From a virus, in the IMG/VR virus record IMGVR_UViG_3300045131_001736, positions 24,560 to 88,559 of that record: DNA of 64,000 nucleotides. The stretch is one strand, 5' to 3'. The translations under genes and the position numbers were made by a program. Below the pieces are notes generated by a model that worked only from the letters and a program-made list of their open reading frames with translations, had not been told where the DNA came from and did not search any database. Shown piece after piece: positions 7,277 to 42,100 of this stretch. Within the stretch, counting starts at the first letter, position 1; every line of letters starts with the position of its first letter.

Positions 7277-9937
7277 TTAGTCTATTGCTTCGGTGATGGC
7301 TTGAGTTATATAGAATTGATTACTATCATCTAACGCAGTTAATACAATCGTTCCATCAAATCTTCTTTGAATAGTTTTGTTATAATTTCCATAAACCATT
7401 GGGGCTGGGTGTAATTCAGTAACTGTTAATACTAAATCAGTAGTTCCACCAAATGAACCAGATGCTATTGTTATAGTATCATCCACTTCGTATAGATTTC
7501 CACTATTTGTAATTGCAATATTACTAACAATACTTGATGCAACAGTTACTTCAAATACCGAACCCGAACCAAACCCTGCAGTTGAACCAGTTAAATCTGA
7601 ATAAACTCCATCAGTTCCATCGGTTATCGAAGATGATATGGTATTGATTACCCCTAAATATGTGGTAAAATCATAATCATCCAATTCCGTTTCTATTCTA
7701 TTATATTGGAAGTCATTACCTATTCTATTGTATGTAAATCTATCTCCAATATTGTTATCGTAGAAGTATTCTCCGATTATATTGTCAGTAAAACTATTTC
7801 CAATTACATTACCTCTATACGAACTGCCACCAAATCCAAAACCATCACCAATCATATTATCAGTAAAATCATTTCCAATTTTATTACTTTTGAAATCATT
7901 AGCAATGGTGTTATCAATAAAATTATTTAATATAAAATTCTCCACGAACCCATTACCAATATTATTTTCAATAGTATAATCACCAAATATGTTACTGATA
8001 CAGCCTTCTCCTATATCGTTTCCGGTAAAAATATTACCAATAGTATTACTATTAAACCCATCTCCAATTTCATTTCCTACAAATGCATAACCAATTTTAT
8101 TTGAGATAAAACTACCTGAAATTAAATTTCCTTTCATCTCATTACCTATTTGATTGTACTCAAACGATTCTAGTTCACCATTATTTACTATTGTATTCGA
8201 TTCAAAATCACTTTCAATATTATTGTGTAAAAATTCATTATTAATAGTATTATCGTAAAAACCACTACCGATTACATTATCCTCAAAAGATTGGCTAACA
8301 ATATTATCATAAAAATCATTACCGATTTTGTTTCGGGAAAAATTCGTATCACCATAATCATCAGACTCTCCTATATCGTTATTTCGAAAACTAGAACCTA
8401 TTTGATTATCTTCGGTCCAACTGTAAAAGTTATTATTATAAACTTCATGTCCTATTATTGTATTACCTAAGAATGATGAAAAGAAGTTATTATTATAAAC
8501 CTCATCCGCTATTGTATTTTCTCTAAATTCATTGTAGGTCTTATTTCCGTAAAAACTTTCACCTATTCTATTATCACCAAATTCACCACCTAACACATTA
8601 TTATAAAACCCATTAAGAGTATTTTTACTAAATTCATCAAGTATGATGTTGTGGTCAAAACCTCCGTTGATTATGTTATAATAAAAATCATCATCTGATG
8701 TGTAGAAGTTATTATAGAACTCACCATTAATGATATTGTAATCAAAATCATCCTCATCCTCATCTCCAAAATGATTATTGTGGAACTCACCACTAACTGT
8801 GTTGTATCTAAAATCACAAACAATTATATTATTGTAAAAACTATCTTTGATTATGTTATTATCAAAATCGTTATTAATAATATTATTATAAAATCTATCC
8901 ATAACTATATTAGAGTTAGAACTAGCATCATTAAATGTGTTATTTCTAAAAACTTGTGAGAATGAATTATCTCTATAAGTGTTTTCACCTTTGAATACAT
9001 TGTTTGGTAATAGGAAAGTATTTTCATCCCATACCGTAAATGCAGCCGTATTTGTAGATGTGTTATTAAAACAGTCTCCTATATACTCAAAGGTTGGTAT
9101 TTCTATTGAAGCTGAATTAGATAGGATGTTATTTTGTTTCCAAGACACTCCTTCTAATAGATTTGCATCTAACAAACGAGTATCACTAGGAGAGTTATAT
9201 CTACTTCCAGTAACAACCATACGATAATCATCTTCAATTGATACGATTTCATAGTAAAATACAAGAGGGTCATTATTGATATTCAAAACACCAACAACAC
9301 TTCCAGTTGTGAAATTTTCAAAAAATGTTCCACTACCGGTGATAAAAGCAAAACTACCAGATTCTTCAACAGAAATAGTTCCATCATAAACATCTTCAGA
9401 ATAATATGCATCATATCTTTTGAAAAGAACTTCTCTGAAATCGTAATCCATTTCGTTTCCTTGATTATCTTTTCTATATATAATTCTACCAAATGCAGGA
9501 CTATCAGTTACTTCGGTTTGATTAAATGTAATATCGTATTTAATATTATCATTTGGATATTCGGGTTGATATGCATCTGATGCCAAAGAACCGGAGTCTA
9601 ATGCGAATACAATTATAGGTGAAATACTACCTGTTCTATAATTACCAACTTGAATTGAGTTACCATAAACATCATAATCCGGTTGGTCATAACAAGTCCT
9701 AAAATCGGTAATCTTATAGTAAGTACCAGGTGTTAATGAATCAGTCGCTAATGAAGCGGTTAATCCATTATAAGTGGTTTCTACTAATCCACCACCAGCT
9801 CCACCACCGGTTAGATTACCTTCACTATCTTTTGCTTTGATAGAGCCATTTGTTGTATCTATAAACAAATTATACCCACCTTCTAATGGAGTATCTAAAT
9901 CTGCGGCTACTTGCCCTTGTAATTGAATGTATTGCAT
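7277..9937 (-). CDS. Giant nonapeptide-repeat beta-solenoid fibre
   Basis: This 886-residue protein has an N-terminal attachment domain (IQLQGQVAADLDTPLEGGYN), a Gly linker, and a domain with TPGTYYKITDF and YPNDNIKYD that I take to be a fibre-family domain. The core is a long array of nine-residue repeats, roughly N-x-I-G-x-x-F-x-x, covering about residues 320-750 (for example NKIGNDFTD, NNIGDRFTY, NRIGNDFQY), with a few insertions such as a Gly/Ser loop and a DEDEDD turn. Ile at position 3 and Phe at position 7 would point inward in a solenoid. This is not a standard pentapeptide repeat. The C-terminus returns to beta-rich fibre-like sequence. It is probably a receptor-binding or side tail fibre. 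Confidence 0.75.
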   Translation of the reverse strand: MQYIQLQGQVAADLDTPLEGGYNLFIDTTNGSIKAKDSEGNLTGGGAGGGLVETTYNGLTASLATDSLTPGTYYKITDFRTCYDQPDYDVYGNSIQVGNYRTGSISPIIVFALDSGSLASDAYQPEYPNDNIKYDITFNQTEVTDSPAFGRIIYRKDNQGNEMDYDFREVLFKRYDAYYSEDVYDGTISVEESGSFAFITGSGTFFENFTTGSVVGVLNINNDPLVFYYEIVSIEDDYRMVVTGSRYNSPSDTRLLDANLLEGVSWKQNNILSNSASIEIPTFEYIGDCFNNTSTNTAAFTVWDENTFLLPNNVFKGENTYRDNSFSQVFRNNTFNDASSNSNIVMDRFYNNIINNDFDNNIIKDSFYNNIIVCDFRYNTVSGEFHNNHFGDEDEDDFDYNIINGEFYNNFYTSDDDFYYNIINGGFDHNIILDEFSKNTLNGFYNNVLGGEFGDNRIGESFYGNKTYNEFRENTIADEVYNNNFFSSFLGNTIIGHEVYNNNFYSWTEDNQIGSSFRNNDIGESDDYGDTNFSRNKIGNDFYDNIVSQSFEDNVIGSGFYDNTINNEFLHNNIESDFESNTIVNNGELESFEYNQIGNEMKGNLISGSFISNKIGYAFVGNEIGDGFNSNTIGNIFTGNDIGEGCISNIFGDYTIENNIGNGFVENFILNNFIDNTIANDFKSNKIGNDFTDNMIGDGFGFGGSSYRGNVIGNSFTDNIIGEYFYDNNIGDRFTYNRIGNDFQYNRIETELDDYDFTTYLGVINTISSSITDGTDGVYSDLTGSTAGFGSGSVFEVTVASSIVSNIAITNSGNLYEVDDTITIASGSFGGTTDLVLTVTELHPAPMVYGNYNKTIQRRFDGTIVLTALDDSNQFYITQAITEAID

Positions 9938-26015: not shown

Positions 26016-29000
26016 CTATTCGTAAAATAATCCAAGAATTTGATTTAATGGTGCAAATGTACCTGTTAGTTTCATTGTATTTCCATTGTACACAAATACG
26101 ATACCTTCGTTTGGAACTATTTTATCTTTTCCACCAATAGCGTTTAATCTTTGTAATTCCATTTTAAGTTTTGCTATCTTCTTTTCATCACCACCAGTCT
26201 TAACATCTGATATAGTTTTATCTAATCTATCCTTCATAGCTCTAACCGCAGAATCAGGGTTTGCTGTAAGTACTGAACTCATAAATGAAAGTACTTCAGA
26301 GCCAACACCCAAAAATATATCCTCAAAAGGTCTAATATTATCCTTTGCTATCTTAGCGTGGTCATTCTTATCAATACCAGTTGCCCAACTTAATACTTTA
26401 GCATCGGTAATGTTTTTATTGTCTAAACGGAATGATTTATCATAGAATGCCCATCTCTTAACCAATCCCATTAGAGTTCTATTATCAATCGGAGATGGTG
26501 ATTTCTTAGTTACAAAATCAGTCCACCATGCTTGATGATAATCAGCAATACCATCCGTATCGGATAGTTTAAACTTAGATTGTAGTTTTGTAATCTGTCC
26601 ACTATATTTTCCTTTTAATGAAGTTAAGTTTTTTGATTGTGGTAACTTAACAACTGGAGGTCCTTGTATTGTATAAGCCGATTGTACGTTTTGATTTACT
26701 TGCTTAATCATACCAGCCAAAACTTTAGCTGCTTCTTGATTTTCACCAATTGCTATACCAGCTTCATTATATTCCATTGTTCCATGAAATACTAATAGTG
26801 CTTGTCCATAAGGAATTACATTTACCGAAGTTGGATATATTACCTCCAAATTCATAAAACATGCACCATTCTTAAAAACTTTTTCTCTTTGTTTTTCTGA
26901 AAGTGATTTTATTGCTTTTGATAAATCACTCATAGCAAAGTTGTATGCTTTTTCTAACTCACCTCTTCCGGCAAACTTAGTAGCTACTCCATTTATATCC
27001 AATGCCTTCTCACCTCTATTAGCTAGATGTCCTTTGTTTCTAGCAGCAACTAATCTTCCATTCACCCAACTGATTGCTAATGCTTGTCCATCAGTTTTTT
27101 CTCTTGTCAATTCCAACTTACCTTCTAATGCACGATTCACAATATCTTTAAGTTGTCCAAATGTTAAGTTAATTTCAGTATCAAATGGATGATTCATATG
27201 TCCATACGCACCACCTTCAGTTAATAACCCCTCAGTTATGTTTGGGTTATTATCAGTTCCACATTTGTGACACATATAGGTATCACTTCCACCTTCAGAA
27301 ATTTTCCAACTCCAACCACAATTATCACAAATTACTTTACCATTTTCTACTCTTTCACTAATCCCACCACCCAATGCGTATGGTTCGTTATATTGTAATT
27401 TCTCAGCGTTAAATTTCTTTCTTAATCTTTTAAGAACTTCTTTATGTTTATCAATCCATGCTTGGTCTGGGTAACCCATTCCAATTCCTTCAAATGCTGA
27501 TTTGGTTTTTACTTTATACCAACCACCACCCGGTGTTCTGAATATTCTTGCAGGTATTTCTAATATTCCATTTGATGGTAATTTAGAATGATACTTTGAA
27601 TCAATATGAACAACCTTTACAATGAATACTTTTTTCTTATTATCAGCTCCAATCAATTCAACTTCTAATGGAACTGCTACTCCACCTATTTTAAGTTTAC
27701 CACCAAAGATATTACCTTTAGTGTATGCTTCTTCTACTGATTTTTTAACCATTTCATATCCTTTATCTTCGGTATCCTTTGTATTTGTTTGATGACCAGG
27801 TTCTGTTTTTTTACTATCATCAAAATCAATTGTATCCAATTCTGCACCATATCCCATATCAGGTGTATATGTTCCCGATTTGTGATGTTGTAAAAAATTA
27901 TGGTCTATTGTACCATCCGATTTATGATTTTTTGAATTAATATTTTCATTTTTACTTATTTCAATTGCTCTTAATTGCTTAAGTGCTTTCTCTTTAGTAT
28001 CATGTGTTCCTAATCTATCACCACCATCCTTTGGATATACCACCCACTTACCATCAATATGTTTGATTGTTTCAACAGTCAATTTCATTGATTCTTTGCT
28101 TCTAAAATCTCTAGTTCCACCTTTATTATCTTTAAATCCGAATGATTTATAGAATTGGATTAATCTTCCCTTAGAACCCCCAAAATCAGATGATGGAGTT
28201 AAGAATACATCTTTTTTGGTTTTCTTTGCATAAGTAATAATATCATTCATTACTTTTGTACCAATACCCTCACTTCTTTTTTCTTTTGGAACAACTATTC
28301 TGTGAATTTCTAAGTATTCTGGATATTCATATACATCCAATTCCACACCATGTTTTTTCCCCAAATGAGAGTCTAACGTTTCAGCAATTACTGATTCAAA
28401 TTTATATTCAGGTGTTGTTGTTTTGAATTCACCTTTTCTCATTATAGTTTTTGCAATAGCTTTATTAGCTTGAAGCATAAATGGTATATTGATATTAGTT
28501 CTATTATCCTTTGCTACAACTTGGTTGTATTGAGTTAAGAATTCAACAAATTTCTTTTTATTTCTACCTAATCTTTTAAAGAACCCAGTTAGTTCTGCTG
28601 CTGATATTTCCTTACCATTTCTCGTATCATTTAATCTATCGAAAAAATGTTTATCAGTAAGAACGATATCAATTGGATTTAATTGTCTATCAGCGTATTT
28701 ATCAATTTGTTGTAAATCAGCCATTGGGATTTCGTTAATTACCGATTCGTTTTTACCAGTATCTGCTTTTTTAGCAGCAACACCAATTTCTTCTGCAAAT
28801 TTATTTGACATTGGTATCACATCCTTTATATCGGCATCAATAACAATAACTTTCATATTAGCAGGTTTCCCATCTCTAATTGCGTTTGTTGTTACAGCTG
28901 CCCAACGATGATGACCATCCACTACATATCCATCTCTACTTACATAGATTGGAGCAGTAATCTTTGGATGATTCGGGTCATTCTCTAATGCCTTTGCCAT

Positions 29001-30488
29001 ACCAGCTACCTTTGCACCAACTAATTCAGATTGAGTTGCTTTTAGAGAATCCGATGGTAATTCAGTTTGGATAGTTTTAATACCCTTTCTTTTCAATAGT
29101 TCTCTAAACATTGGTTCCGTATCAACTTCACCATTTATATCTTTTTCCATACTTGCCGCAGGTGAACCTTCGGTTGGTTTGCCTTTAAATTGTGGCATTT
29201 CCTCACGAGGAATTCCAGCATTACCAGCACAATATAAGTTTGTTCCAGCTACAGTTATTTTACATAAATTGTAATTAGGAGCTGCTTCACCATTTTCTTT
29301 TGCCTGATTTGTTAGTTGAACCAACTTATCAATCTGCATTGAAATTTCTCTTTGTTGCTTATTTGAAATTTTAGGAATATCCGATTCTGAACTAAATGTA
29401 TCTGAATCTGCTTTTGGTAATACCTTAGTTACATTATCTAATGCAACATTTGGTATTTCAGTTTTGGGTTTTTCTTTTTGCTTAACATCAGGTGCATGTT
29501 TAAACATATCCGAACCGGCTACTTTAGTTCCTTTAGATGGTTCCGATTTTGTATCACTAGCTCCATCTATTTTAACATACTTACCACCATCATTCTTTGA
29601 AAAAGATGGAGAAGATTCATCATCCTCTTTACCTTTTTGTTTATACACACCATGTCCAATATGAGTGTATTTGGAATCATCATTTTCATCTTCAAAGATT
29701 ACTTGATATCCTTCCTTTATCATTCTAAAAGTTGCTACCTTTTTACCATTGATAGTTGGCATTCCATGTTCATCTTTTCCAATAGTTTTTACAATAACTT
29801 TTTTATTTTTAAATCTACCCATTAAAATGGTATCTCCGATTTCAACATCTAATGTAATACCTTCATCTAAATTAATTGATTCTGGTAATTTGGAAAGTTT
29901 ATCAACAACCATATCAAAAATTGATTGATTGAATTTACCATAAGCTTTCTTTACAAAGAAATCTTTTTTATCCTCAGTACTACCTTTTTTTAAACCAATC
30001 CTAACATCAGTACCACTAATTGCATTTGGTTGTGCTGGTGATATAAAAACATACCCCCTATCAGCATATCCTTCCAATTCAATACTATCTTTGTATTTTT
30101 CAAAATACTTCCCACCCAAACGACTTGAATCTTTCTCACCAACCACAGTTATAAATGCAGTAGTTTCTTTATTGAATTTGCTTAGGATTTCAGTTGGAGC
30201 ATAGGGATTTTTGACCTGAGCTATTTTGTTTGATGGGATACCAAACATAGTGGTCATTACCTTTACTTTCTCCTTAAAATTGAATGGGGATTTTTGATTG
30301 TCTGTTTTATCAGAGGTTCCGATATAAACATTATTTTTTCCAAACTTTTTTACTAATGTTTGGTAAGTAGCGAAGTGCCCTTTATGAAAAGGTTGAAAGC
30401 GACCAGAGTAAACAACAACTAAGTCCTTTACACTGCTCGCTTCTCCTAATAATATACTCTCTACTAAAAACTTTGATAAATCACTCAT
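26016..30488 (-). CDS. Five-enzyme/binding-domain polyprotein, 1490 residues
   Basis: Domains in order: a leader ending LLGE16-A; a nucleotidyltransferase (22-200) with SGRFQPFHKGHF (HxGH, H35-H38) and ISGTDVR (157-163); a KOW-like beta segment (212-260); a Ser/Lys linker; a ParB/sulfiredoxin-like domain with DGHHRWAA (524-531); a phage domain (613-685, HFFDRLNDTRNGK); a GNAT acetyltransferase (710-806, RSEGIGTKVM and FYKSFGF); a small module with LGTHDTKEKALKQL; a beta domain; a zinc ribbon (C1054, C1057, C1073, C1076); and a ligase-like nucleotidyltransferase (1095-1490) with EKTDG (K1131), FMNLE (E1215), EGIVFV (E1461) and MKLTG (K1473). Candidate protease peptides (LDEG 208, ESVINE 581, ESVIAE 698, SVEEA 917, LLTEG 1088) separate the domains. 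I infer a packaged, processed polyprotein. Confidence 0.75.
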   Translation of the reverse strand: MSDLSKFLVESILLGEASSVKDLVVVYSGRFQPFHKGHFATYQTLVKKFGKNNVYIGTSDKTDNQKSPFNFKEKVKVMTTMFGIPSNKIAQVKNPYAPTEILSKFNKETTAFITVVGEKDSSRLGGKYFEKYKDSIELEGYADRGYVFISPAQPNAISGTDVRIGLKKGSTEDKKDFFVKKAYGKFNQSIFDMVVDKLSKLPESINLDEGITLDVEIGDTILMGRFKNKKVIVKTIGKDEHGMPTINGKKVATFRMIKEGYQVIFEDENDDSKYTHIGHGVYKQKGKEDDESSPSFSKNDGGKYVKIDGASDTKSEPSKGTKVAGSDMFKHAPDVKQKEKPKTEIPNVALDNVTKVLPKADSDTFSSESDIPKISNKQQREISMQIDKLVQLTNQAKENGEAAPNYNLCKITVAGTNLYCAGNAGIPREEMPQFKGKPTEGSPAASMEKDINGEVDTEPMFRELLKRKGIKTIQTELPSDSLKATQSELVGAKVAGMAKALENDPNHPKITAPIYVSRDGYVVDGHHRWAAVTTNAIRDGKPANMKVIVIDADIKDVIPMSNKFAEEIGVAAKKADTGKNESVINEIPMADLQQIDKYADRQLNPIDIVLTDKHFFDRLNDTRNGKEISAAELTGFFKRLGRNKKKFVEFLTQYNQVVAKDNRTNINIPFMLQANKAIAKTIMRKGEFKTTTPEYKFESVIAETLDSHLGKKHGVELDVYEYPEYLEIHRIVVPKEKRSEGIGTKVMNDIITYAKKTKKDVFLTPSSDFGGSKGRLIQFYKSFGFKDNKGGTRDFRSKESMKLTVETIKHIDGKWVVYPKDGGDRLGTHDTKEKALKQLRAIEISKNENINSKNHKSDGTIDHNFLQHHKSGTYTPDMGYGAELDTIDFDDSKKTEPGHQTNTKDTEDKGYEMVKKSVEEAYTKGNIFGGKLKIGGVAVPLEVELIGADNKKKVFIVKVVHIDSKYHSKLPSNGILEIPARIFRTPGGGWYKVKTKSAFEGIGMGYPDQAWIDKHKEVLKRLRKKFNAEKLQYNEPYALGGGISERVENGKVICDNCGWSWKISEGGSDTYMCHKCGTDNNPNITEGLLTEGGAYGHMNHPFDTEINLTFGQLKDIVNRALEGKLELTREKTDGQALAISWVNGRLVAARNKGHLANRGEKALDINGVATKFAGRGELEKAYNFAMSDLSKAIKSLSEKQREKVFKNGACFMNLEVIYPTSVNVIPYGQALLVFHGTMEYNEAGIAIGENQEAAKVLAGMIKQVNQNVQSAYTIQGPPVVKLPQSKNLTSLKGKYSGQITKLQSKFKLSDTDGIADYHQAWWTDFVTKKSPSPIDNRTLMGLVKRWAFYDKSFRLDNKNITDAKVLSWATGIDKNDHAKIAKDNIRPFEDIFLGVGSEVLSFMSSVLTANPDSAVRAMKDRLDKTISDVKTGGDEKKIAKLKMELQRLNAIGGKDKIVPNEGIVFVYNGNTMKLTGTFAPLNQILGLFYE

Positions 30489-30546: not shown

Positions 30547-30873
30547 TTATTTAGCCGCTTGCTCTTTAAAAGCTGGATTATAAGTAATAGTACCTTCTCT
30601 TAAATCGATTTGACCTCTTGGGTATTCCTTTTCAAGACCAGCTACTAATTCTCTCATCGCATCATTTTGAGATTTAAAATCAGCTTCAGCTCTTTCTAAA
30701 CCATCATGTAGTTTATCCATTTCTTCTTCTAATTCTTTTCTTCTCAAATAGATTTGCCCGAAAGCGTTTACTAATTCTTGAATTTTACCATTGCCTTCTC
30801 TTAGTGGAGTAAGGATATCTTCGGTTAATTCTACTGTAACTAACTCGATTTTTTGAATTGTTTCGTTTGCCAT
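30547..30873 (-). CDS. Small coiled-coil protein, paralogue 1
   Basis: The 108-residue protein is a continuous charged helix (IYLRRKELEEEMDKLHDGLE, RAEADFKSQ) followed by EKEYPRGQIDLREGTITYNP. The C-terminal pattern YPxGQIDLxxGTxxY is repeated in the 90-residue protein at 35420-35692 on the other side of the sugar-transfer cassette, so the two are paralogues. The function is unknown. A late-type 9-mer is 35 bases upstream. Confidence 0.6.
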   Translation of the reverse strand: MANETIQKIELVTVELTEDILTPLREGNGKIQELVNAFGQIYLRRKELEEEMDKLHDGLERAEADFKSQNDAMRELVAGLEKEYPRGQIDLREGTITYNPAFKEQAAK

Positions 30874-30919: not shown

Positions 30920-31672
30920 CTAACTGAAATTTTCAGAAATTACACTTACCCCACGTTTTTGTATAACCTGAGATGAACATCGATTTCCAAATATAATTGA
31001 TTCATTAATATTATTTGTTTCCAAATACTTTGTAGTGAATCCTGCTACAAAAGTATCACCTGCTCCTGAGATATCCATTATCTCAACTTTATCAGTTGGA
31101 TACATATTGTTTAAATACATACATCCATCTTTATCTAATGTGATTATTAGTTTTTCTAAAATCCATTCATTATTTTCAATAAATGATTTATTATTTTGAT
31201 ATTCGGTTCTGTTTAATTTAATGAACTTTAAATCAGTGCACCATTCTCCTAATTTTTTTTTAGTATCACAAATTGTATTAGGGTGATTAAATGCTATTTT
31301 AGCAATATCAGTATCACTTAGAAATCCTTTGTTATAATCCGATATGACTATCATATCAAAATCATAAAAATTTATTTCAGAAAGTGTATTACCAATAGGC
31401 GGAACTACATCATCAATATCAACTCGTAAAAGTAAATGATTAAAACTTTCCTCAACATATCTCTTTTTTACAATCAATTGAGTATTACAAATCAATTCAG
31501 TTTTACAACCCAATGCTTCTAAATTTTCTTTAACATTATAAGCCATACCACCATTGGTGATTGTATGTGATTCTATAAAAACAGGTGCAGGTCCTTCAGG
31601 TGATAATCGTGTAGCTTTTCCATAAACGAATTCATCTAAACATCCCTCACCTATAATTAATACTTTACTCAT
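30920..31672 (-). CDS. PfkB-type heptose-phosphate kinase (HldE kinase-like)
   Basis: This 250-residue ribokinase-family sugar kinase has the HldE/RfaE kinase-domain substrate motif RLSPEGPAPVF (22-32; Pro, Glu and Val conserved), the Gly-Gly motif NGGMAYNVKENLEALG (40-55) and the PfkB catalytic signature DISGAGDTFVAGF with base D206. The HldE kinase phosphorylates heptose-7-phosphate at C1 for ADP-heptose synthesis. At 250 residues it is trimmed relative to the usual ~310-residue domain. It overlaps a separate nucleotidyltransferase gene by eight bases, so the two halves of HldE are encoded as adjacent genes, followed upstream by a heptosyltransferase. The sugar specificity is inferred from motifs and neighbours. 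Confidence 0.8.
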   Translation of the reverse strand: MSKVLIIGEGCLDEFVYGKATRLSPEGPAPVFIESHTITNGGMAYNVKENLEALGCKTELICNTQLIVKKRYVEESFNHLLLRVDIDDVVPPIGNTLSEINFYDFDMIVISDYNKGFLSDTDIAKIAFNHPNTICDTKKKLGEWCTDLKFIKLNRTEYQNNKSFIENNEWILEKLIITLDKDGCMYLNNMYPTDKVEIMDISGAGDTFVAGFTTKYLETNNINESIIFGNRCSSQVIQKRGVSVISENFS

Positions 31673-32054
31673 TTGTTAATATTTTAGTTGTACTGAAATC
31701 ATCCATTCGATTAAAATACACAATTGATTTTGCGTATTGTTCTCCCACTATTGGTTTATTTTTATAATCAGACCCAATTACAAATATATCAGGGTTATAT
31801 GTTTTAATTACATTTTCTAATAATTCAGCTGAATCAAATATAACTACTTTACTAACTCCTTTAATTCTTTCCAAATTATACTTTCGTTCTTCTTCAGTAT
31901 GGAACGGTCTATCTTCTCCTTTTAATTCCTTTACTCTCCTATCGGAATCAATTCCAATAATAACAATATCACCAAAGGCAGATGCGAACTCAATCATCTT
32001 AAAATGCGCATGATGTAAAACATCAAAACATCCATTTAACCAAACCTTTTTCAT
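31665..32054 (-). CDS. Heptose-1-phosphate nucleotidyltransferase (HldE-like)
   Basis: This 129-residue protein of the cytidylyltransferase family matches the HldE C-terminal domain and GCT-type enzymes: VWLNGCFDVLHHAHF (4-18), RPFHTEEERKYNLERIKGV, DIFVIGSDY and STTKIL near the C-terminus. The HxGH nucleotide-binding motif reads H14-H-A-H17, so Gly is replaced by Ala, an unusual but small change. With the kinase it would convert heptose-1,7- or heptose-phosphate to ADP-heptose, the donor for the adjacent transferase. CDP-activation is the alternative. It overlaps both neighbours (four and eight bases), so the genes are coupled. Confidence 0.8.
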   Translation of the reverse strand: MKKVWLNGCFDVLHHAHFKMIEFASAFGDIVIIGIDSDRRVKELKGEDRPFHTEEERKYNLERIKGVSKVVIFDSAELLENVIKTYNPDIFVIGSDYKNKPIVGEQYAKSIVYFNRMDDFSTTKILTNE

Positions 32055-33202
32055 AGAAACTTTTCTAATTCATTAATAACCATCTGAGATGTAATTGCTT
32101 TAGTACATTCAAATTGCCTATCCGTACCTTTATGGTCTGGACACCAATTCCAATCACCAGCATCTAATTTTAATCGGTTAAAGCATCCACCACATTTATC
32201 TTTAGGTGAAGTTATTCTAACACAATCTTGCATTTCTGCCCAATCATATGAGAATCCACTAATCAATACCGTCTTTGTACCCAATGCCCAACTTAACCAA
32301 CTTAACCCACTACCAATACCAATGAATGCTTTTGATTTTCTCATTTCATCCATTACTTTTTCCAAAGAACCGGCTGGGTGTTTGACTACTCCAGTTGGGT
32401 GTTTATTACCCATATAATCATTATTCTCTTGTGATAATAGTTTAACTGTATAACCTTTATCATTTAACCAATTCACTACTTCTTGCCAACCATTTGGGTT
32501 ATTCCAATACTTAGATTGAGCAGTTCCATGTATTGCTATTGTTATTAACTTATCATCTTTAACAATATCTGATGATGGTAACTTTGGTTTTATTTCTTTA
32601 TATGGTAATCCCAATATATCAGAACCCATTTTTTGCATTGTTTGGGATTTAAAATCGTTTGGATTTTTTCTGTTATTTACACTACCATCTTCATTATAGA
32701 ATAAACCAACAGTATACATTGCGTATAAATTTTCAACACTTTGACCTGGTTTTACAAATTCTATATTTGGATATTGTGACTCTAACATTTCGTTATGAAA
32801 TGTAGATACAATTAATTCACAATTATGTACTTTCTGAAATTCGTCAAAGTATGGAAACCATGCTAATGTATCACCCAATGCTTTTGATGATAGTGCTAGA
32901 TAAACTCTCTTATTAGTTGCGGTATAATCATGTTCAAAAAATAAAGTATTACCTTCCCATATTTCAATTCTCCAATCTATAAAATACTCAATATTACATT
33001 TAGCCCAAGTATTGTTTGATAATTCGGTTGTGAATAAAACATTACCATTACGTTTGTTTATAAACTTAACATTGTATTTACCCGTTTGGTTTCCCAATAC
33101 TTCAGCCCAAGGACCATTTACGAAATGATAATTTACTTTATTTCGTACTTCAACAATGTTATTTAAATTTTTAGTTAATTTATCGTAAATCATTAATTCC
33201 AT
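32051..33202 (-). CDS. TibC/BAHT-type protein O-heptosyltransferase
   Basis: The 383-residue protein matches the bacterial autotransporter heptosyltransferase family (TibC, Aah, GT9-related) along its length. N-terminal part: GPWAEVLGNQTGKYNVKFIN, then WRIEIWEGNTLFFEHDYT. Then SSKALGDTLAWFPYFDEFQK (D111 at the proposed catalytic-base position), AIHGTAQSKYWNNPNGWQEV and FIGIGSGLSWLSWALGTKTV. The C-terminal iron finger is C337-x2-C340-x13-C354-x11-C366 (CGGCFNR, WNWC, FECT). Family members transfer heptose from ADP-heptose to Ser in beta-helical strand-loop-strand repeats. It is encoded with a kinase and nucleotidyltransferase that would make the donor. The acceptor is unknown; the phage's own fibres are candidates. 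Confidence 0.88.
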   Translation of the reverse strand: MELMIYDKLTKNLNNIVEVRNKVNYHFVNGPWAEVLGNQTGKYNVKFINKRNGNVLFTTELSNNTWAKCNIEYFIDWRIEIWEGNTLFFEHDYTATNKRVYLALSSKALGDTLAWFPYFDEFQKVHNCELIVSTFHNEMLESQYPNIEFVKPGQSVENLYAMYTVGLFYNEDGSVNNRKNPNDFKSQTMQKMGSDILGLPYKEIKPKLPSSDIVKDDKLITIAIHGTAQSKYWNNPNGWQEVVNWLNDKGYTVKLLSQENNDYMGNKHPTGVVKHPAGSLEKVMDEMRKSKAFIGIGSGLSWLSWALGTKTVLISGFSYDWAEMQDCVRITSPKDKCGGCFNRLKLDAGDWNWCPDHKGTDRQFECTKAITSQMVINELEKFL

Positions 33203-35355
33203 TTTTTTACTTCTCTATCAATAAGAGAAAATCCATCTGCTTGTTTAACATACATTTTATTTGTAGTATATCGTAATTTAGATTCTTTATTAAACACATC
33301 AGTTAACCATAAATCATATCCCTCCCATAGGGTATCATTAAATCTATCAATCCACCAACTCTTTGTTCTATTTGGTATTAGATACGCATGTGCTAAATCT
33401 TGGTTTGATGCAGTTTTACTGAATAAATCATCAATGTATTCTTTACTTCTGGAATTATTGTTTGATAATCCAATAAAGTAAACATCATCTCTTTCAGAAA
33501 TAAAACATGCTTTATGAACTGCTTCAACAAATTCTTTTAATCCAGTGAATATAAACGCATCAGCTTCAAATACTAATGTATAATCAAATTCATCATCCAT
33601 AGCTTCTAATGCTCCCCTATGTGCGTTAAAGCACCCATAATGCCTACCCGTTAATGGACCTAATCCATTCCCAAAGTTTCCCGGCTTATCCGATATCTGA
33701 TTTGGTCTTTTACAAAAATCAGATGGTGGTGTTCCATCAAATGGAGTATTTACAATTGGTTGATACACCATTCCATAACTTTCCAATTGTTTTAGTGATT
33801 CTGAACTAATTTGTTCTCTCAAATCATTTGGCTTAGTCATCAAATGTTTAATTTGAATCTTTGGTTTTTTTCTAACAAATGAACGATATACGTGCTTTGC
33901 TTGATTATAAAAAAATTCATCAGCTGCTCTAGTAACCCCCGGAAAGAAACTTCCACCATAATCATCTCCACTAATAACACCACCCGGTTTTACTTTATGA
34001 TACCAAAAGTTTAAATCGGATTTTAAAGAATCATAAGTATGACCCGCATCCAACATAATAAAATCAATTGAGTTATGTTGAAATTGATTTGATGCGTTTT
34101 CAGATGTATCCTTTATTACGTTAAATAATTTTGAGTTATTACTTAACATAGTATTTTCCATAAATTCTGAAAATATATCCCCACCAAATCCACCAACTAT
34201 TGTATCATGTATTTCTTCACCATCGGTACCTTTCCAAGTATCAACAGTTGTAAATTTAATATCTTTATTAGAATCTTTAATTAAGGTAGCCATATGATTG
34301 GTTGATTTACCCAACCATGCACCCAACTCAACAAATACATCACCATCGGTTCCATTTTCAACCATTTCATTATACAAATGTTCATATGAAAACCAACCAG
34401 GAATTTCATTAAATTCAGGTTGTAGTTTTTCTAATATAATTTGTTTGGTTTGATTTAGGTTATCATCGATATAAGTAACCAATTCATTATTATCATATGA
34501 ATCCAAATATGTGTGTAGTTTTCTGAATATAGATGGTAATCCATATCCCAATGCCTCTTTAATAGATAATGGATTTAATTCCAATTTAGAACTAAAGTAA
34601 AACATATCCGATGCTTTGTAGAATTTATCTACATCACTACGTTCACCCCATACAATACAATTATCAGGTTTGTGTTTCATTATTGGTCCCCAATATGATT
34701 CAAAGTTCATAGCTTGGTTTCCGATAAAATGAAATTTAATTTTATATTTTTCTAATAATCTAGCTACGTTGAATATTTCACCCTGATTCTTACCTTCAGT
34801 AAATAATCCAACCATAAGAACATGCTTCCAATCAGATTCAAATCCCAATTCGTTTTTGAATTCGTTTTTATCATACTCAATAGTTTCTATTGGATAATCC
34901 CATACACGTGTATCTACTCCCACCAATTCAAATCTTCGTCTACTCCATTCAGATACTAAAACATATCTATCTGGATGATATTTGATTTCATTTGGATTTG
35001 TATGAGAACCATGTGTAGATGCTACAATATAGTAATTTCTACTATTGTCAAAAATAGTATCTAATATATTGTGAGCTAAAAAATGTTCGGGGATTTCCGT
35101 AAAATGAATTATGTTTGGTTGAGTTGATTTAATAATATCCACAAGTTCGGATTTATTATCACCCAATGTGTACAACTTACATAAATCAGCTATTTGATTC
35201 TTTTGTACTACAAAGGCATCACCAGAGTGATTGTTTACCTCAACTACCTCAATATCAAATTTATCTTTAAAGATTTGAATTTGCTTTAAAAGGTATTGTG
35301 GCATCCCACCAGTTGAGAGATGGGATGCTATATATAACAATTTTTGTTTTGACAT
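33193..35355 (-). CDS. GT4 - methyltransferase - GT25 trifunctional protein
   Basis: The 720-residue fusion has three parts. Residues 1-310 are a GT4-type glycosyltransferase (IASHLSTGGMPQYLLKQIQI, MVGLFTEGKNQGE, SSKLELNPLSIKEALGYGLP). Residues 335-490 are a class I SAM methyltransferase (FVELGAWLGKSTNHMA, FIMLDAGHTYDSLKSDLNFW, KPGGVISGDDY). Residues 520-720 resemble GT25 (GRHYGCFNAHRGALEAM and YTLVFEADAF, with Glu-Ala-Asp in the metal-binding place, then AHAYLIPNRTKSWW). It would add and methylate a second sugar, extending the heptose. The start is 26 bases from the -7 box of a Bacteroidota-type promoter, and the stop overlaps the next gene by ten bases. Confidence 0.78.
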   Translation of the reverse strand: MSKQKLLYIASHLSTGGMPQYLLKQIQIFKDKFDIEVVEVNNHSGDAFVVQKNQIADLCKLYTLGDNKSELVDIIKSTQPNIIHFTEIPEHFLAHNILDTIFDNSRNYYIVASTHGSHTNPNEIKYHPDRYVLVSEWSRRRFELVGVDTRVWDYPIETIEYDKNEFKNELGFESDWKHVLMVGLFTEGKNQGEIFNVARLLEKYKIKFHFIGNQAMNFESYWGPIMKHKPDNCIVWGERSDVDKFYKASDMFYFSSKLELNPLSIKEALGYGLPSIFRKLHTYLDSYDNNELVTYIDDNLNQTKQIILEKLQPEFNEIPGWFSYEHLYNEMVENGTDGDVFVELGAWLGKSTNHMATLIKDSNKDIKFTTVDTWKGTDGEEIHDTIVGGFGGDIFSEFMENTMLSNNSKLFNVIKDTSENASNQFQHNSIDFIMLDAGHTYDSLKSDLNFWYHKVKPGGVISGDDYGGSFFPGVTRAADEFFYNQAKHVYRSFVRKKPKIQIKHLMTKPNDLREQISSESLKQLESYGMVYQPIVNTPFDGTPPSDFCKRPNQISDKPGNFGNGLGPLTGRHYGCFNAHRGALEAMDDEFDYTLVFEADAFIFTGLKEFVEAVHKACFISERDDVYFIGLSNNNSRSKEYIDDLFSKTASNQDLAHAYLIPNRTKSWWIDRFNDTLWEGYDLWLTDVFNKESKLRYTTNKMYVKQADGFSLIDREVKKWN

Positions 35356-35419: not shown

Positions 35420-35692
35420 TTAATAAACTACCGTCCCAGCTTCTAAATCAATTTGTCCATTTGGATATTTAATATCCAATTCAGCAAGTTCGGTATTCAT
35501 ATCAGCAATAGATTTATCGATTCTATTACCAAATTCTTTTTCTTGAGATTCAATATCTGCAATTTGAGATTGTAATTGTCTTTTACGAACAGCCGATTGT
35601 CCCAATGCAATAATCATATTGTTTTGTTCTTCTTGAATTGATTTTAATTTATCAATTACCGATTGTTCTAATTGTTCAGTTTTTTGTTCCAT
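35420..35692 (-). CDS. Small coiled-coil protein, paralogue 2
   Basis: This 90-residue protein is helical (KLKSIQEEQNNMIIALGQSA, then QSQIADIESQEKEFG) and ends ELDIKYPNGQIDLEAGTVVY, the same motif as the 108-residue protein at 30547-30873. The two paralogues bracket the sugar-transfer cassette. A late-type 9-mer lies 24 bases upstream. The function is unknown. The abundance of such small coiled coils in phage late regions suggests a structural or chaperone role. Confidence 0.6.
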   Translation of the reverse strand: MEQKTEQLEQSVIDKLKSIQEEQNNMIIALGQSAVRKRQLQSQIADIESQEKEFGNRIDKSIADMNTELAELDIKYPNGQIDLEAGTVVY

Positions 35693-35747: not shown

Positions 35748-36134
35748 TTATTCAGGTTGTATTGGGTAAATATATGGAGTTGTATTTGTAATATCTCGTA
35801 ATGCTTGTCTATAAGTTGCCCACTCCAATTTCTTTTCAGCTGATAGTGGTGAATCATTAAATTGAGTCCAATCGGATTCAGATAATAGATTATTTCGTTT
35901 CAGTCTAACCGTAAATAAATCCCGTTCAGCTTGTTCATCATTAGTAAGTGGGTTTTTAGTATGTACACTATTTACATATTTACATCGAGTACTAATTGCC
36001 TCTTGCCACTCATCATAGGTGAGTTCAATTCGATTTTCCGTAGGAATATACTTAATATCCCAAACATCAGTTGGGTAAAATCCAGTGTAATTCCCATCAG
36101 AATCGTATGTTGCAAAAATTTGTCTTTCAGTCAT
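35748..36134 (-). CDS. Tail fibre assembly chaperone
   Basis: The 128-residue protein ends with the signature of phage tail-assembly chaperones: RLKRNNLLSESDWTQFNDSP, then LSAEKKLEWATYRQALRDIT, which fits the Phage_tail_APC family almost perfectly. The N-terminal half (IFATYDSDGNYTGFYPTDVW) is the variable part that contacts a specific fibre. It lies 26 bases after the 2789-residue tail protein gene, so that protein is its likely client. The chaperone is not expected in the finished virion. Confidence 0.85.
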   Translation of the reverse strand: MTERQIFATYDSDGNYTGFYPTDVWDIKYIPTENRIELTYDEWQEAISTRCKYVNSVHTKNPLTNDEQAERDLFTVRLKRNNLLSESDWTQFNDSPLSAEKKLEWATYRQALRDITNTTPYIYPIQPE

Positions 36135-36160: not shown

Positions 36161-39100
36161 TTATCCCGTTGGAAGATTACCAATAGCTATCCAATACCCA
36201 TCAACACTATCTAATACTAAACTAACACCAGATGTGGTAAGGTTATATATATGATTATATCCATTTGAACCATTTGAACTTCTATAAGATGCACAAGTTA
36301 CAACCGGTGGTGAACCAAATGTTACAGGGAATGTTACGTTAGCAGAACTATTTATTCTTCCCCATTGTATAATACTACCATCTGATAATTTTTGGTAATT
36401 ATTTGTAGACATTGAACTAGCAACCGTATTTGTTTGGTGTTGGTTTCCTAATCCAATAAGGTTATCGGTATAAGTATATGCAAACCTATTTGATGAGTTA
36501 CCAATATTGTACAATGAATCAGATTCAGGTATAATATCACCCTTTGAATTAATAGCTGTTGAGGTATCAACCCCAAGACCAACTGTTTTTTCAAAATATG
36601 ATATACCACCGGCTGCTTTAAGTACTTCTTGATTAGCTGAACCTGCTGGTTTTCTTGGTATTCTAACATAGGTATCAGGTGTTGATACTACTTGAATACC
36701 ACCGGCTTTAATCTCAACGAAATTGGATGGAACAGATACATTTAATATAGTATCGTATGTTGGTGTATTTGCTAAAGTTGGCCCAACAGTATGTGATTGG
36801 TATGTAAATGAATATGAATTAATACTGGAACCAATATTTGCTCTTTGACCCGAATACCCATAAAATCTAATTGAATATCTAAATCTAATATTACCAGTAG
36901 ATGTTAGATTCATTGAGCGCGTTACACCAGTTTGGGCAGAAACATTATTTTGATAACCACTTATAGTGTTGGTTGAAATATATGTCCAAGTACCATCATT
37001 ATGTGATATAATATCATCTGAAACATAGTTATGAACTCCAGGTACAGAAAATGTATATACCCATTCATCGGTTTTAATAATTTCAACACTATCAACTAAT
37101 ACCAATTTAATACCATTACCATCTTTGATGTTAATCATACTTTTACCAGCAACTAATTCAACAGTCTTTATTTGTTTATTATCGTTTAACCAAAATCCAT
37201 GCGAATCAGATACTCTAATAGTTTTACCACCGGCTGATACTTTGTAAACTTTATCAACTTTTCTCTTTTTAATTTTAGCTATTTCAAATTCACTAAATTT
37301 GTTTACTTCAGTATTATCTAATTTATCATTCCAACTCCATGCTATTATTTTTTCACCTTCAACAACATCTTTAGCAAGAATAGTTTCACCAGATGATAAT
37401 ATAATTTTAGTATCACCAGTTACGGATACAAAACTTTCAAGTTTTACGTTGTGGGTTAATATACCATTAACATAATAAGTATGCTTACCAGATACTCTAA
37501 TGTTATAAACATCATCGGTTTTCTCATTTATAGTTATTGATGTTATCTCAACTTCTTCATTTTCTGAATTTAGGAATATATCTCCAACATTTATTTTATC
37601 AGTTGTTTTAATACACCAAACACCATTTTGTTTAATAATATGTTTGTGTGAGTGTGTACATTCAATTAATCCATTATTTATATTGTAAATTTCATTATCA
37701 GCATATGATTTGATATCCAACACCTCTTCAATTGTTTTTTCGGAATCGGATATATGGGTTGCAGTCCAATCATTTTCTTCGGAATATTTTGGTGTTAATG
37801 AATCAATATCTAATGATTTAATAAAATCACCAATTTGAATATCTTTAATTTGTTTGAATGAACCATCACCCATTTCAATTAGTGATGTTCCAACTAAACA
37901 CGTTCCACCTCCCCCTTCTTCTATATATTCTCCGGTATAATAATTACCAGCATTATATGAACTAACAGCTGCGGCTGTTCCAAGTAAAGTTCTACCCACA
38001 ACAACACCAGTAGAAATATTAACTGCTTCTAAATTTAATTCTGCGTATGCAACAGATGGTGATGAATACCCACCATGGAATTGCCCATTGAATGTAGGTA
38101 AATACGATGGGTATGATGTGGTATGACTAACTCCTGCTGGAATTGATACAGATACGGCTGGTATATTTAGTGCAACTTCAAGTGCTCCTGCTGCTGTAAC
38201 ATTATATGAACCCGTTGATGGTAATGATACCATATAACTCGAATAAACAAAATTGGCATTAGATGTATTTGTTGTTACCGATTGTGGTGTTGGATATACA
38301 ACCCCCGAACCCGTAAACTGAAAGTATTTAACATCACCTGTGGTTGTTGTTAATTCATTTGAAGGTGATATAATTACCTTTTTTTCACTACCAGTATAAA
38401 ATTGTAATTCAGGTAAAGATGGGTCAAATATTATTTCACTATTATCATCACGTAAATTACCACTATCAGCATCAATAATCCAATCTCCGATTCTACCATC
38501 AGTTGCGTTAATACTACCAGATAAACCTGCATTATTAGCGTTTACATTTCCATTAGCATCAACAGTAAAATTATATCTAATTGGATTTGAACCAGAAATT
38601 ATTCCTATGTTAATAGCTCCTCCATTTATTTCAGAACCATTAATTGTTGAACCTTGAACGTTTCCTGAGAAATTAACACCATCACCCGTATAGTTCAAAT
38701 ATGCACCATCTTTACTTCGTAATGAGAATAACGGGTCATCTGACCCAGATGGAAATCCTAAAAATACACCAACCTCATCAAAACTTTGACTTAATTGCCC
38801 CATTGAAAGGTATGGTTTATCGGATTGATTTAATGTTGAACCTGATGTTGATAATCGCAATCCCTCACCAGAAATTATTCTAAATTCACGACTACCCGCT
38901 GATAATGAACCTTGTGTATATGTGTAATCACCATTGGTATTGGGATAATAATAAGAGGCACTTGCGGCGGAATTAAATTTAATTGTTTGACCATATGGAT
39001 TTGATGCTGATAGAAATAATCGAGTTTCATCTTCAGAAATTCCATAAATTTTCATTGCAGGGAAATTCAAAACATTACCAATACCCAATACAGCTACATC

Positions 39101-42100
39101 AAATGCTTTTATAATATGAGATTTTAAATCACTTGGTACTTCTGGATATGCACTTTCAGGTTGGTCATAAAGTAATTCTTGTATAAAATCATAATATGAT
39201 AATGGAAAATCACCAGTTTGCCTTACTTCTAAATAATTTGCACCAGATGGCCATGCAATATATGAGTCTAAAGAAGAAGATACGACTTGCAGTGATGATG
39301 TTGTGTGGAATGCAATTTGATAAGATGAACTATCTGCATATAATCCATTTGATAAAAATAATTTTGAATTACCAATTTCACTATTACTTGCACTATTACT
39401 TGCGCTTAATATTCTATGATTCGTAGTAAGTGTACCAAATACCGTTAAAAGTGCAGAACCACTACCATCAAATGGATTAGGTCCTTTAAGTGCTCTATTT
39501 GCTCCAAAACCTACTAGATTATTCAACCCAGCATATACATCATTATGTAGAGATGCTGTTACTTCCGTATTATATTGATATCCAACGGGGAATGTAGTTG
39601 GGAAGTAGATACCAGATGGGTCAATTATCCATCCACCAAATTTACCAGCAGATGCTGATACAATACCAGATACATTTAATTCATTTCCATCCCAACGTAA
39701 GTGTCTTGTACCATCACCATTTTCAATTGATAATAATCCAGTTGTTCCAGCAGTTCCAGTAGGTCCACCATCTTCAGTTACACCAATATAAACTCCCTTT
39801 TGTCCATAACCTTGAATTGATTGTCCGATTGATATATATGGTTCACTATCTCCACCATAAATTGTAATTTGTGGATTAACATCATATGAAGTTGCTGGTG
39901 AACCTACATTAATTGTATTTTTAATAAATGATTCTTCGAAGATACCAATCTTAGCTGCTACAAAGAAATCTTCTTCTCCTAACTCTTCCCAATAATCAGT
40001 TTGAGTATTAGGTTGTTTGGCGCCAATTAAAGTATATCCAGAGGGTACAGTATCAATTGATTGAGTATATAATCCAGAAACAGTATTTGATAAATAAGTA
40101 TGAGGACCCGATGGTAATTTAGTTGCGTAATACATCTCAGGTGTACCATCTCCATTCTTATCAAATAAAACTGCATCTCTCCTTTTCTGATTTAAATCAA
40201 AAAGATAATTAGTTGAACCACTCCACTCTCCTCTAAATACAACACCAGGACCAGTTGCTCCTTCAAATACTGTTGTTAATGATTGTGATAAGAAATAAGT
40301 TGCTCTACCATTTTCTATATCAACTTTATAAACAATTGTAGCTGCTTTATTATCTTGTGGATTTGCCCAAGTTTGAATTGGTGCCACCGTAGCAGGACTT
40401 CCTGTTGGTCGATTTGTTTGAGTTATAAATCCGGGTTTACTATATAATGATGCTGAGAATTCTCCCAATGTACCAATAACATTACCAATTAAATCTAATG
40501 TTTCCTCAGAGTAAGTACTAACATGCGTTAATTCAGTAGTTCCTTTAAATGCTCTAATTTGTGTACCAGTACCAGTTAACGTTGTACTTCCATCAGTTTC
40601 AACTAATACAGCAGTTGCTGGATTTGTTAATGAAACTTGATAGTTATCAGCTCCCGCTTTTATACCAGTAATAGTTACTTCAGATGTAGCAATTACCCCA
40701 GAGGTAGTATTACCATCTCTAATTTGAACTTGCCATGTTGCATTTTCGCCAGGAGATGTAGCATCACCGGAACCAATTTCAAATACATTATCAGTACTAA
40801 TTGTACTATAAGCAAATCCATCTTTAAAATATTGGTAATAAGTTTGAGATGCGGTAACATTAAATGCAGTTGCCGTTAAAAATATTGAATCTAAGGGAGA
40901 AGTTACTACACCATCTCCATCAAAATTAACTACTAATGATGATGCAGCCAAACTAACCGAACGAGCATTTACTCCTTCTTTTTGTTTTGTAAAAGATTGT
41001 GTACGAGTTACATATTGTGAACCAGTTACAATACCATTTGTAATTGAAAATGGTCTTATTAAAATTGAATAATCAATACTAGCTGAATCATCCGTCATAT
41101 TACTCATTGATACAAATAACATTGTATCATTTAACCCATTATCAGTTGTTTCCGTTTTTGATGCAGTTAATAAACCAACAGTAATATTATTTACCGAAAT
41201 AGATGCGGTAAATGTTCCTGGTAATTCTTGTGAATTAAACTCTAAATATTCATCACCTTGCTTAACTTTTAAAGTTGTGTTTGTTGTTGTGTAATCATAT
41301 ACACCACCATTTTCATCAGCAGATAACGCGAGTATTGTTGGGGCTAATTCAATATTGATTGCAGCTGCCCCATCAACACTTTTTTGGAATTGTTGAAAGA
41401 AACTTTGTGTATAATAAGATGCGGTATAGAATGGATGAATTTCTAATTTATATTCAACACTAGCGGTTAAATCAGTCATATTGCTAAATCCACTTATACT
41501 CATAGATGCATCTCCCATTATTTCATCAAAGGTAGAATATTGAATTCCTTTTGTAATAATAGATGCAGTTGTAAATGTACCCGGTTTTTTACTACTTGTA
41601 AATATAAGTGGTAAGAATCCCTGCGTTATAGTAATATCCGTAGCTGCTGTTTCATAACTAAATACTCTACCTCTTTGGTCAGCATTTAAAGTTATTGGAT
41701 TTGGATTAATTTTTACTACAATTGCATCATCACCCGGGTCTCCATCGGGTACAGATACGAATGTTTTATCAATACTAATAGATGCTGATGTATAATCTTC
41801 TAAATAAGTAAATTTAGTACTTAATTGTTTTGTTTGAACTGCTTCATAAAATGGAATACCATTTTGACCGGGAATACCACTATTAATTATATTATTATCA
41901 AAATCCGTTACCTCAACACTAATTCTTCTATCAAATGTACCGGTAACATAAAACATATAGTAATATGGTTCAATTGTTTCCGGGTCAACAGACATCGATG
42001 GGAATATATTCAATGTACCACTTATAGGTGCTTCGTTTGTTCCTCTCAAATAGAATGAACCAGTTACTCTACCAATATTTGGAGTAAACTCTCTTTCGGT

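Follow-up and report, generated by a model that had tools for sequence, protein, structure and literature searches.

A TibC-fold glycosyltransferase module of large aquatic phages and its association with collagen-like Gly-Thr/Ser-Thr/Ser tracts

TibC and AAH, members of the BAHT family of protein O-heptosyltransferases (TIGR04414), are described as modifying beta-helical autotransporters (PMC4358343). Another O-glycosyltransferase, SgtA of Clostridioides difficile, is encoded by a gene adjoining bclA3 and, according to PMC7157674, adds GlcNAc to Thr in collagen-like triplets while tolerating Ser. Phage-encoded glycosylation of the phage's own virion is reported for mycobacteriophages, on the C-termini of capsid and tail tube proteins (work cited in PMC12619734). 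No title or abstract among the matches listed in our literature search, from which subscription papers were mostly absent, dealt with a phage TibC/BAHT enzyme or with BAHT enzymes acting on collagen-like tracts. Here, a gene set around a TibC relative that is carried by large aquatic phages was analyzed in a window of 64,000 nucleotides (positions 24,560 to 88,559 of virus record IMGVR_UViG_3300045131_001736).

The module consists of four ORFs, all confirmed on the minus strand: P0004 (33193-35355, 720 aa), P0003 (32051-33202, 383 aa), P0002 (31665-32054, 129 aa) and P0001 (30920-31672, 250 aa). They overlap, as the sequence-only reading had proposed, by 10, 4 and 8 bases. The module sits in the tail-fibre region and its immediate neighbors, also on the minus strand, are a tail fibre assembly chaperone (35748-36134, Phage_tail_APC 58.5 bits) and, upstream of the module, a 2789-aa tail fibre (36161-44530, Gp53-like_C).

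The core of the module, P0003, is a TibC/BAHT-fold enzyme. It scored 285.6 bits against hepto_Aah_TibC (TIGR04414, NCBIfam; cut-off 200) and matched 4rap among the PDB sequences (E 3.4e-55). The predicted model (pLDDT 83.7, with low local confidence at residues 347-351) was superposed on TibC over residues 20-383, including the N-terminal barrel, with a Z score of 38.0 over 354 residues and an rmsd of 2.5. The four iron-finger cysteines C337, C340, C354 and C366 align with TibC C339, C342, C358 and C370 and were kept in every one of the 51 distinct phage sequences compared. The catalytic D111 and the phosphate- and sugar-binding T227, K231 and W302, corresponding to TibC Asp110, Thr226, Lys230 and Trp305, were invariant in the same set. 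The BAHT-type enzyme claimed earlier, with its iron-finger Cys and catalytic Asp, was upheld by family profile, fold and most active-site residues.

P0003 differs from TibC and AAH in the stereoselectivity residue Pro300, which is replaced by Gly, and in Arg286, which is replaced by Val283 (V, L or A across the 51 phage sequences). The TibC thumb-tip residues F265/V266 are Y263/M264 in P0003 and invariant in the phage set. Arg286 contacts adenine and is required in TibC; in the BAHT family it is described as highly conserved (PMC4358343). All 69 TibC-type bacterial sequences retain it, but it is lost from all 51 phage sequences and from five bacteria. Because of this loss, P0003 was assigned to a separate clade of the TIGR04414 family and not to the autotransporter heptosyltransferases.

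P0004 had been read as a GT4-methyltransferase-GT25 fusion. The first two domains passed their Pfam thresholds (GT4 41.6, Methyltransf_24 67.6), whereas the C-terminus can be called GT25-like only, with a score of 13.7 against a cut-off of 24. The predicted model (pLDDT 72.8) gave Foldseek matches, over an unspecified part of P0004, to the GT4 enzyme BshA, to the sugar/small-molecule O-methyltransferases SpnH and MeT1, and to COLGALT1; at sequence level no PDB match was obtained at E 0.01. Relatives of P0003 were found in 166 viral-contig stretches by single-protein search and in at least 590 by alignment search. Of 68 loci in which the enzyme is free-standing, 65 have P0004 upstream of it and three start at or near the enzyme gene; these counts together place the module beyond chance. 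In some phages, the enzyme itself is fused to glycosyltransferase and methyltransferase domains. Microcystis phage Mel-JY01 (PP395634) carries such a fused form as well as tracts.

The phage enzymes formed one clade (SH-aLRT 96, quick tree) with chromosomal homologues from methanotrophs and a Polaromonas relative. In eight of ten clade bacteria the enzyme has as its neighbor a (Gly-Thr-Ser)n collagen-like protein that looks secreted, compared with one of 86 other bacterial loci. These neighbors are roughly 100 to 320 residues long, the one in L084 having 102. The tract was located within 1.5 kb of the enzyme in all five clade bacteria found first and in three of the five found later; L716 had no tract within 18 kb, and L721 none nearby, its locus ending at the contig end. 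The sole positive among the other loci is L089, which has a tract but falls on the opposite side of the tree and retains the Arg; L101, whose tract is 6.4 kb away, was excluded. L085 was not picked up by a strict criterion (8 or more triplets, Ser/Thr 50% or more), and a relaxed one (6 triplets, 40%) was therefore used on all 78 bacterial loci. Weak matches (E above 1e-10) and a second strong match in G279 were left aside. In G010, the tract pattern matched contig C22 only, which points to a second tract protein away from the enzyme on C142; the tract adjoining the enzyme is so irregular that the pattern does not capture it. Of the 17 pattern matches in G007, 10 lay away from the enzyme locus.

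The same association was present in viruses: the enzyme occurred in 21 of 43 viral contigs picked for their tracts and in none of 42 arbitrary contigs, a set that was not lineage-matched (Fisher 3.7e-8). The remaining 22 tract contigs had no enzyme, and no tract was detected in the enzyme-bearing G053 (133 kb) and G040 (107 kb). A terminase-based set, composed mostly of short contigs, was excluded as a control. Many aquatic phage contigs contain long Gly-X-Y tracts that are poor in proline and rich in Ser/Thr, and we know of no explanation for the folding and role of these tracts. The record from which the window was taken contains 227 tract matches, which fall in one protein of 3994 aa and another, incomplete, of 732 aa, and the very large (GTS/GSS)n fibres of this phage are encoded outside the window. 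Inside it, the candidate acceptor is a 649-aa collagen-like fibre (4428-6377, minus strand; Collagen 26.2 bits, just under the cut-off of 27.2) with Gly-X-Y tracts of 12 triplets (5601-5708) and 6 triplets (6228-6281). The tract genes of the window lie tens of kb from the module, and no tract was found in the adjacent 2789-aa fibre.

This genomic context suggests that the acceptor is a Ser/Thr collagen-like tract, as one part of the sequence-only reading had it, and that the phage branch decorates GTS collagen-like fibres and not adhesins of the kind known for TibC. P0003 is most likely a collagen-tract variant of the TibC-type protein O-glycosyltransferase that acts on the phage's own fibres. 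We infer that transfer occurs, with the following residues, sugar and order of steps. P0003 would place the first sugar, probably a heptose, on Thr/Ser hydroxyls of Gly-Thr/Ser-Thr/Ser tracts; P0004, with its GT4, methyltransferase and GT25-like parts, would lengthen, methylate and cap it; and in this branch the kinase and nucleotidyltransferase would boost the donor from host intermediates. Taken as a whole, this module-wide scheme of virion fibre glycosylation is, in our estimate, as easily right as wrong. The chances are likewise evenly divided for the broader proposal that the clade, with its hundreds of phage contigs, methanotrophs and Polaromonas relative, consists of dedicated tract O-glycosyltransferases with a donor pocket lacking the adenine-reading Arg, and that the phage fibres are densely glycosylated and mucin-like. 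A dedicated glycosyltransferase would speak for glycan-stabilized or glycan-shielded fibres, and also for the idea that some phage 'LPS' sugar genes serve the virion rather than the host. The bacterial pairs of enzyme and tract protein make the question testable in E. coli without a phage.

The arrangement resembles that of SgtA and BclA3, in which a glycosyltransferase gene also adjoins that of a collagen-like acceptor and Thr of Gly-X-Y triplets is O-glycosylated. SgtA is a GT-A enzyme using UDP-GlcNAc, however, and going by its description (PMC7157674) is not homologous to P0003. The mycobacteriophages resemble the proposed scheme in modifying their own virion proteins, there at capsid and tail tube C-termini.

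The two remaining genes had been read as a PfkB heptose kinase and a split HldE-type nucleotidyltransferase that together provide donor synthesis. Their HldE-like character stood, but donor synthesis was overstated. P0001 resembles the HldE N-domain (PfkB 66.1 bits; best matched in the PDB by 4e84, a heptose-7-phosphate kinase, at E 6.9e-11), although its best NCBIfam model, the HldE kinase domain TIGR02198, scored 116.9 against a cut-off of 345. P0001 is shortened. P0002 resembles the HldE C-domain (cytidylyltransferase-like, 75.2 bits), with 100.7 against a cut-off of 181.5 for its best NCBIfam model, the HldE adenylyltransferase domain TIGR02199; its best PDB sequence matches were cytidylyltransferases. 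Homologues of GmhA (PF13580) and GmhB (TIGR00213) were found in none of six records, three of them near-copies and some possibly incomplete, while controls were positive in 9 and 5 of 14 genomes. A complete ADP-heptose pathway was not found in these six records and was set aside. Of 81 loci (L001-L081, some shortened or near-copies), 37 have the nucleotidyltransferase next to the enzyme; it was seen in 5 and absent from 17 of 22 hand-picked enzyme-bearing records, where fragments are possible, so that the donor pair was also rejected as a fixed component of the unit.

These absences, together with the lost Arg286, favor as donor a nucleotide sugar other than ADP-heptose, still with the collagen-like tract as acceptor. 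We consider this possible but somewhat unlikely: the phosphate and sugar contacts are kept, HldE-like genes adjoin the enzyme in many loci, and the ADP-heptose enzyme WaaC carries Val at the corresponding position of a weak alignment. The kinase/nucleotidyltransferase pair is also present as homologous separate genes in cyanophages S-SM2, P-TIM68 and P-SSM2 (among the matches listed, 34-47% identical for the nucleotidyltransferase and 31-48% for the kinase). In S-SM2, unlike in the window, the pair lies inside a sugar cluster with genes annotated as phosphoheptose isomerase. No Synechococcus or Prochlorococcus record was among four records with the TibC-type enzyme.

That a different virion protein is glycosylated, be it the 2789-aa fibre, the solenoid protein or a beta-helical fibre, appears unlikely. 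The 2789-aa fibre and chaperone directly adjoin the module, and the known substrates of TibC and AAH are beta-helical, but the clade-wide association is with GTS tracts. No strand-loop-strand repeat model was among the NCBIfam matches of the six fibre/tail proteins scanned in the window, the large fibres lying beyond it, and an autotransporter-type acceptor was rejected. The nonapeptide solenoid, the other acceptor named earlier, does exist (7277-9937, with 27-base repeats), but it had no family match and no link to the enzyme and was dropped.

Alteration of host LPS or capsule during infection, for receptor masking or superinfection exclusion, is the function customarily assigned to glycosyltransferases and rfaE of aquatic phages (as described in PMC7029224), was assigned likewise to a 'heptosyltransferase I' of a huge phage (PMC10747093), and agrees with the distant similarity of P0003 to LPS heptosyltransferases. 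It is nevertheless rather improbable here, given that the best family is a protein O-heptosyltransferase with an N-terminal barrel and iron-finger region missing in GT9 enzymes, that the gene order is fixed within the fibre region, and that bacterial relatives adjoin GTS-tract proteins. Glycosylation of phage DNA, a known role of some phage glycosyltransferases (PMC12619734) to which a P0004 match to a PHROG labelled DNA methyltransferase might point, is very improbable, as the genes are situated in the fibre region, known enzymes of the P0003 family have proteins as substrates, and the Foldseek matches of P0004 include small-molecule O-methyltransferases.

The window lies in an 88.6-kb virus record with a GC content of 29-36%. 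On the minus strand, genes for a 2789-aa tail fibre (36161-44530), a tail fibre chaperone and a small protein are followed by the four overlapping genes of the module: a 720-aa protein (P0004, 33193-35355), a 383-aa enzyme (P0003, 32051-33202), a nucleotidyltransferase (P0002, 31665-32054) and a PfkB kinase (P0001, 30920-31672). Profile searches bore out at family level the four identities proposed in the sequence-only reading, and the firmest of these predictions is P0003. It scored 285.6 bits against TIGR04414 (cut-off 200) and matched TibC (4rap) with an E-value of 3.4e-55. A structure model built with 14 homologues (mean pLDDT 83.7, below 50 at residues 1-9 and 347-351) superposed on TibC with a Z-score of 38.0 over 354 residues, the next family being the GT9 heptosyltransferases (Z 19.6, aligned from residue 91 or later). 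The enzyme had been rightly assigned to the TibC/BAHT type. P0003-type enzymes are real, widespread and of known fold, yet form a separate clade that likely has a new acceptor class.

The active site was compared with the functional TibC residues named in excerpts of PMC4358343. TibC D110, T226, K230 and W305 correspond to D111, T227, K231 and W302 of P0003, and C339/C342/C358/C370 to C337/C340/C354/C366; all eight were invariant in 51 distinct phage sequences (from 82 alignment rows). R286, by contrast, is V283 in P0003, and the stereoselectivity residue P300 is replaced by G297. According to the same excerpts, R286 contacts adenine N1, and its Ala mutant is among those that abolish or largely diminish activity. 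This position was Arg in 69/69 TibC-type bacterial sequences and Val, Leu or Ala in the 51 phage sequences. As the ADP-heptose enzyme WaaC also aligned a Val there, albeit weakly, the change is compatible with an ADP-heptose donor.

The nearest bacterial relatives (47-49% identical), from two Methylobacter, two Methylococcaceae and one Polaromonas MAG, sit amid cellular genes and have Ile or Val at the R286 position. Each adjoins a protein with Gly-Thr-Ser/Ala triplets and, by eye, a signal-like N-terminus. When tracts were defined as at least 6 Gly-X-Y triplets with Ser/Thr making up 40% or more of the X and Y positions, one was found within 1.5 kb of the enzyme in 6 of 78 bacterial loci (the nearest five and L089) and at 6.4 kb in L101; the remaining 71 had none, and 11 of the 78 loci extended only a short way on one side. 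In a quick tree of 100 sequences (76 bacterial and 24 representing the phages, the partial L156 and L160 omitted), one group (SH-aLRT 96) united the phage enzymes with those of the five bacteria and with the long-branched L101, which has Thr at the R286 position. The 69 TibC-type sequences grouped together, and L089, which keeps the Arg, was a long branch on the opposite side. Besides re-finds, further searches of 201 and 398 genomes added five members to the clade and 14 loci of the Arg type, with an adjacent tract in 3/5 versus 0/14 (Fisher 0.010; flanks of about 1.5 kb only). Of the two others, L716 had no tract within 18 kb, and L721, where none was seen, is cut by a contig end. Pooled, a tract lay beside the enzyme in 8/10 clade members versus 1/86 others (72 of the first 78 loci, L101 left out, and the 14 new ones); with L089, L156 and L160 left out, the Fisher value for 8/10 versus 0/83 was 4.4e-10, which overstates independence because the sequences are related. 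In a pattern search of 22 genomes, all matches in G008 and G011 fell at one site adjoining the enzyme and those in G009 and G012 about 3 kb or less from it, G007 and G010 also matched elsewhere, and 5/15 TibC-type genomes matched, but not near their enzyme. Two-gene pairs of a TibC-type enzyme and a GTS-tract protein with a signal-like N-terminus (L082, L084, L085, L087, L088, L768 and L769) occur in methanotrophs and a Polaromonas MAG.

For the phages, 50 enzyme-bearing records were searched (49 of 80 listed viral records and the MAG of locus L086). Runs of four G[ST][ST]-type triplets were present in 22/50, and in 10 of the 12 virus records of at least 100 kb, several of them near-copies; the other two, G053 and G040, showed no tract when the whole record was read with a relaxed criterion. 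G039, whose enzyme is as identical to that of the window as G040's, has tracts. In the reverse direction, 21 of 43 tract-picked viral contigs (43 of 80 listed, chosen by length) encoded the enzyme, versus 0/42 contigs picked by two arbitrary 16-mers (Fisher 3.7e-8; all at least 40 kb, unmatched for lineage and host, tract content unchecked). The window's own record gave 227 tract-pattern matches, all of those listed lying left of the window, where a 3994-aa protein holds 349 G[ST][ST] triplets and an incomplete 732-aa protein 117; within the window, short tracts were confined to 4428-6377. On the acceptor the sequence-only reading was half right, the Thr/Ser collagen-like tract, one of its two candidates, being the part carried forward here.

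We propose that P0003 would add a first sugar, likely heptose, to Thr/Ser of Gly-X-Y triplets, which P0004 would extend and cap. P0004 shows similarity to GT4 enzymes and sugar O-methyltransferases, and a weak one to GT25 enzymes including COLGALT1. In SgtA/BclA3, as described in excerpts of PMC7157674, a neighbouring glycosyltransferase is proven to act on collagen-like triplets. Such phage genes are commonly read as LPS modifiers (excerpts of PMC7029224 and PMC10747093), but this reading fits less well with both the enzyme family and the gene neighbourhood. The claim of donor synthesis was overstated. The kinase and the nucleotidyltransferase have homologues in a cyanophage pair, and each scores under its equivalog cut-off; no homologue of GmhA (PF13580) or GmhB (TIGR00213) was found in six records (three near-copies), and the controls gave matches. 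The nucleotidyltransferase was present in 5/22 hand-picked enzyme-bearing records. The phage can therefore supply at most the kinase and nucleotidyl-transfer steps, and neither was seen in most relatives examined.

In IMG/VR at least 590 stretches encode relatives of the enzyme, which was found in 4 of 50,697 annotated phage records; these and the following counts include many near-copies. It was free-standing in 68 of 81 loci, with P0004 upstream in 65 of the 68 and the remaining three starting at the enzyme gene or close to it; in 37/81 the nucleotidyltransferase lay downstream. More distant phages encode the enzyme as a fusion with GT4, methyltransferase or other domains. One of the four annotated records, Microcystis phage Mel-JY01 (PP395634.1, 4750-8430), encodes a 1226-aa protein with GT4 and TibC-type domains labelled 'methyltransferase FkbM', probably a misannotation, as no FkbM match was found at E 0.001. 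The 254-kb contig of L086 (CAIWBA010000291.1) carries phage-tail-like genes, an enzyme 51% identical and GTS tracts; its binning in a Bacteroidetes MAG is a weak hint of the host phylum.

Near its C-terminus (about residues 2209-2514), the 2789-aa fibre has two tandem intein/Hint-like blocks (Intein_splicing at 32.6 and PT-HINT at 22.8 bits fall short of their cut-offs; intein_Cterm at 18.3 bits exceeds its cut-off of 15.6), and it may be spliced or self-cleaving. A 1490-aa fusion at 26016-30488 (-) begins with a nucleotidyltransferase-like domain (33.8 bits) and also has a GNAT-like part that scored below threshold; L024 encodes an 800-aa shorter relative. Adjoining the collagen-like fibre gene, a 217-aa protein (6370-7023, -) without a match in Pfam and PHROG searches has a spaced His-x-Asp...His...Arg and looks, by eye, like a putative, unproven 2-oxoglutarate oxygenase, as in collagen hydroxylases. 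Two small proteins, one on each side of the module (30547-30873 and 35420-35692, -), share by eye the C-terminal motif YPxGQIDLxxGT, so the module may lie between duplicated genes.
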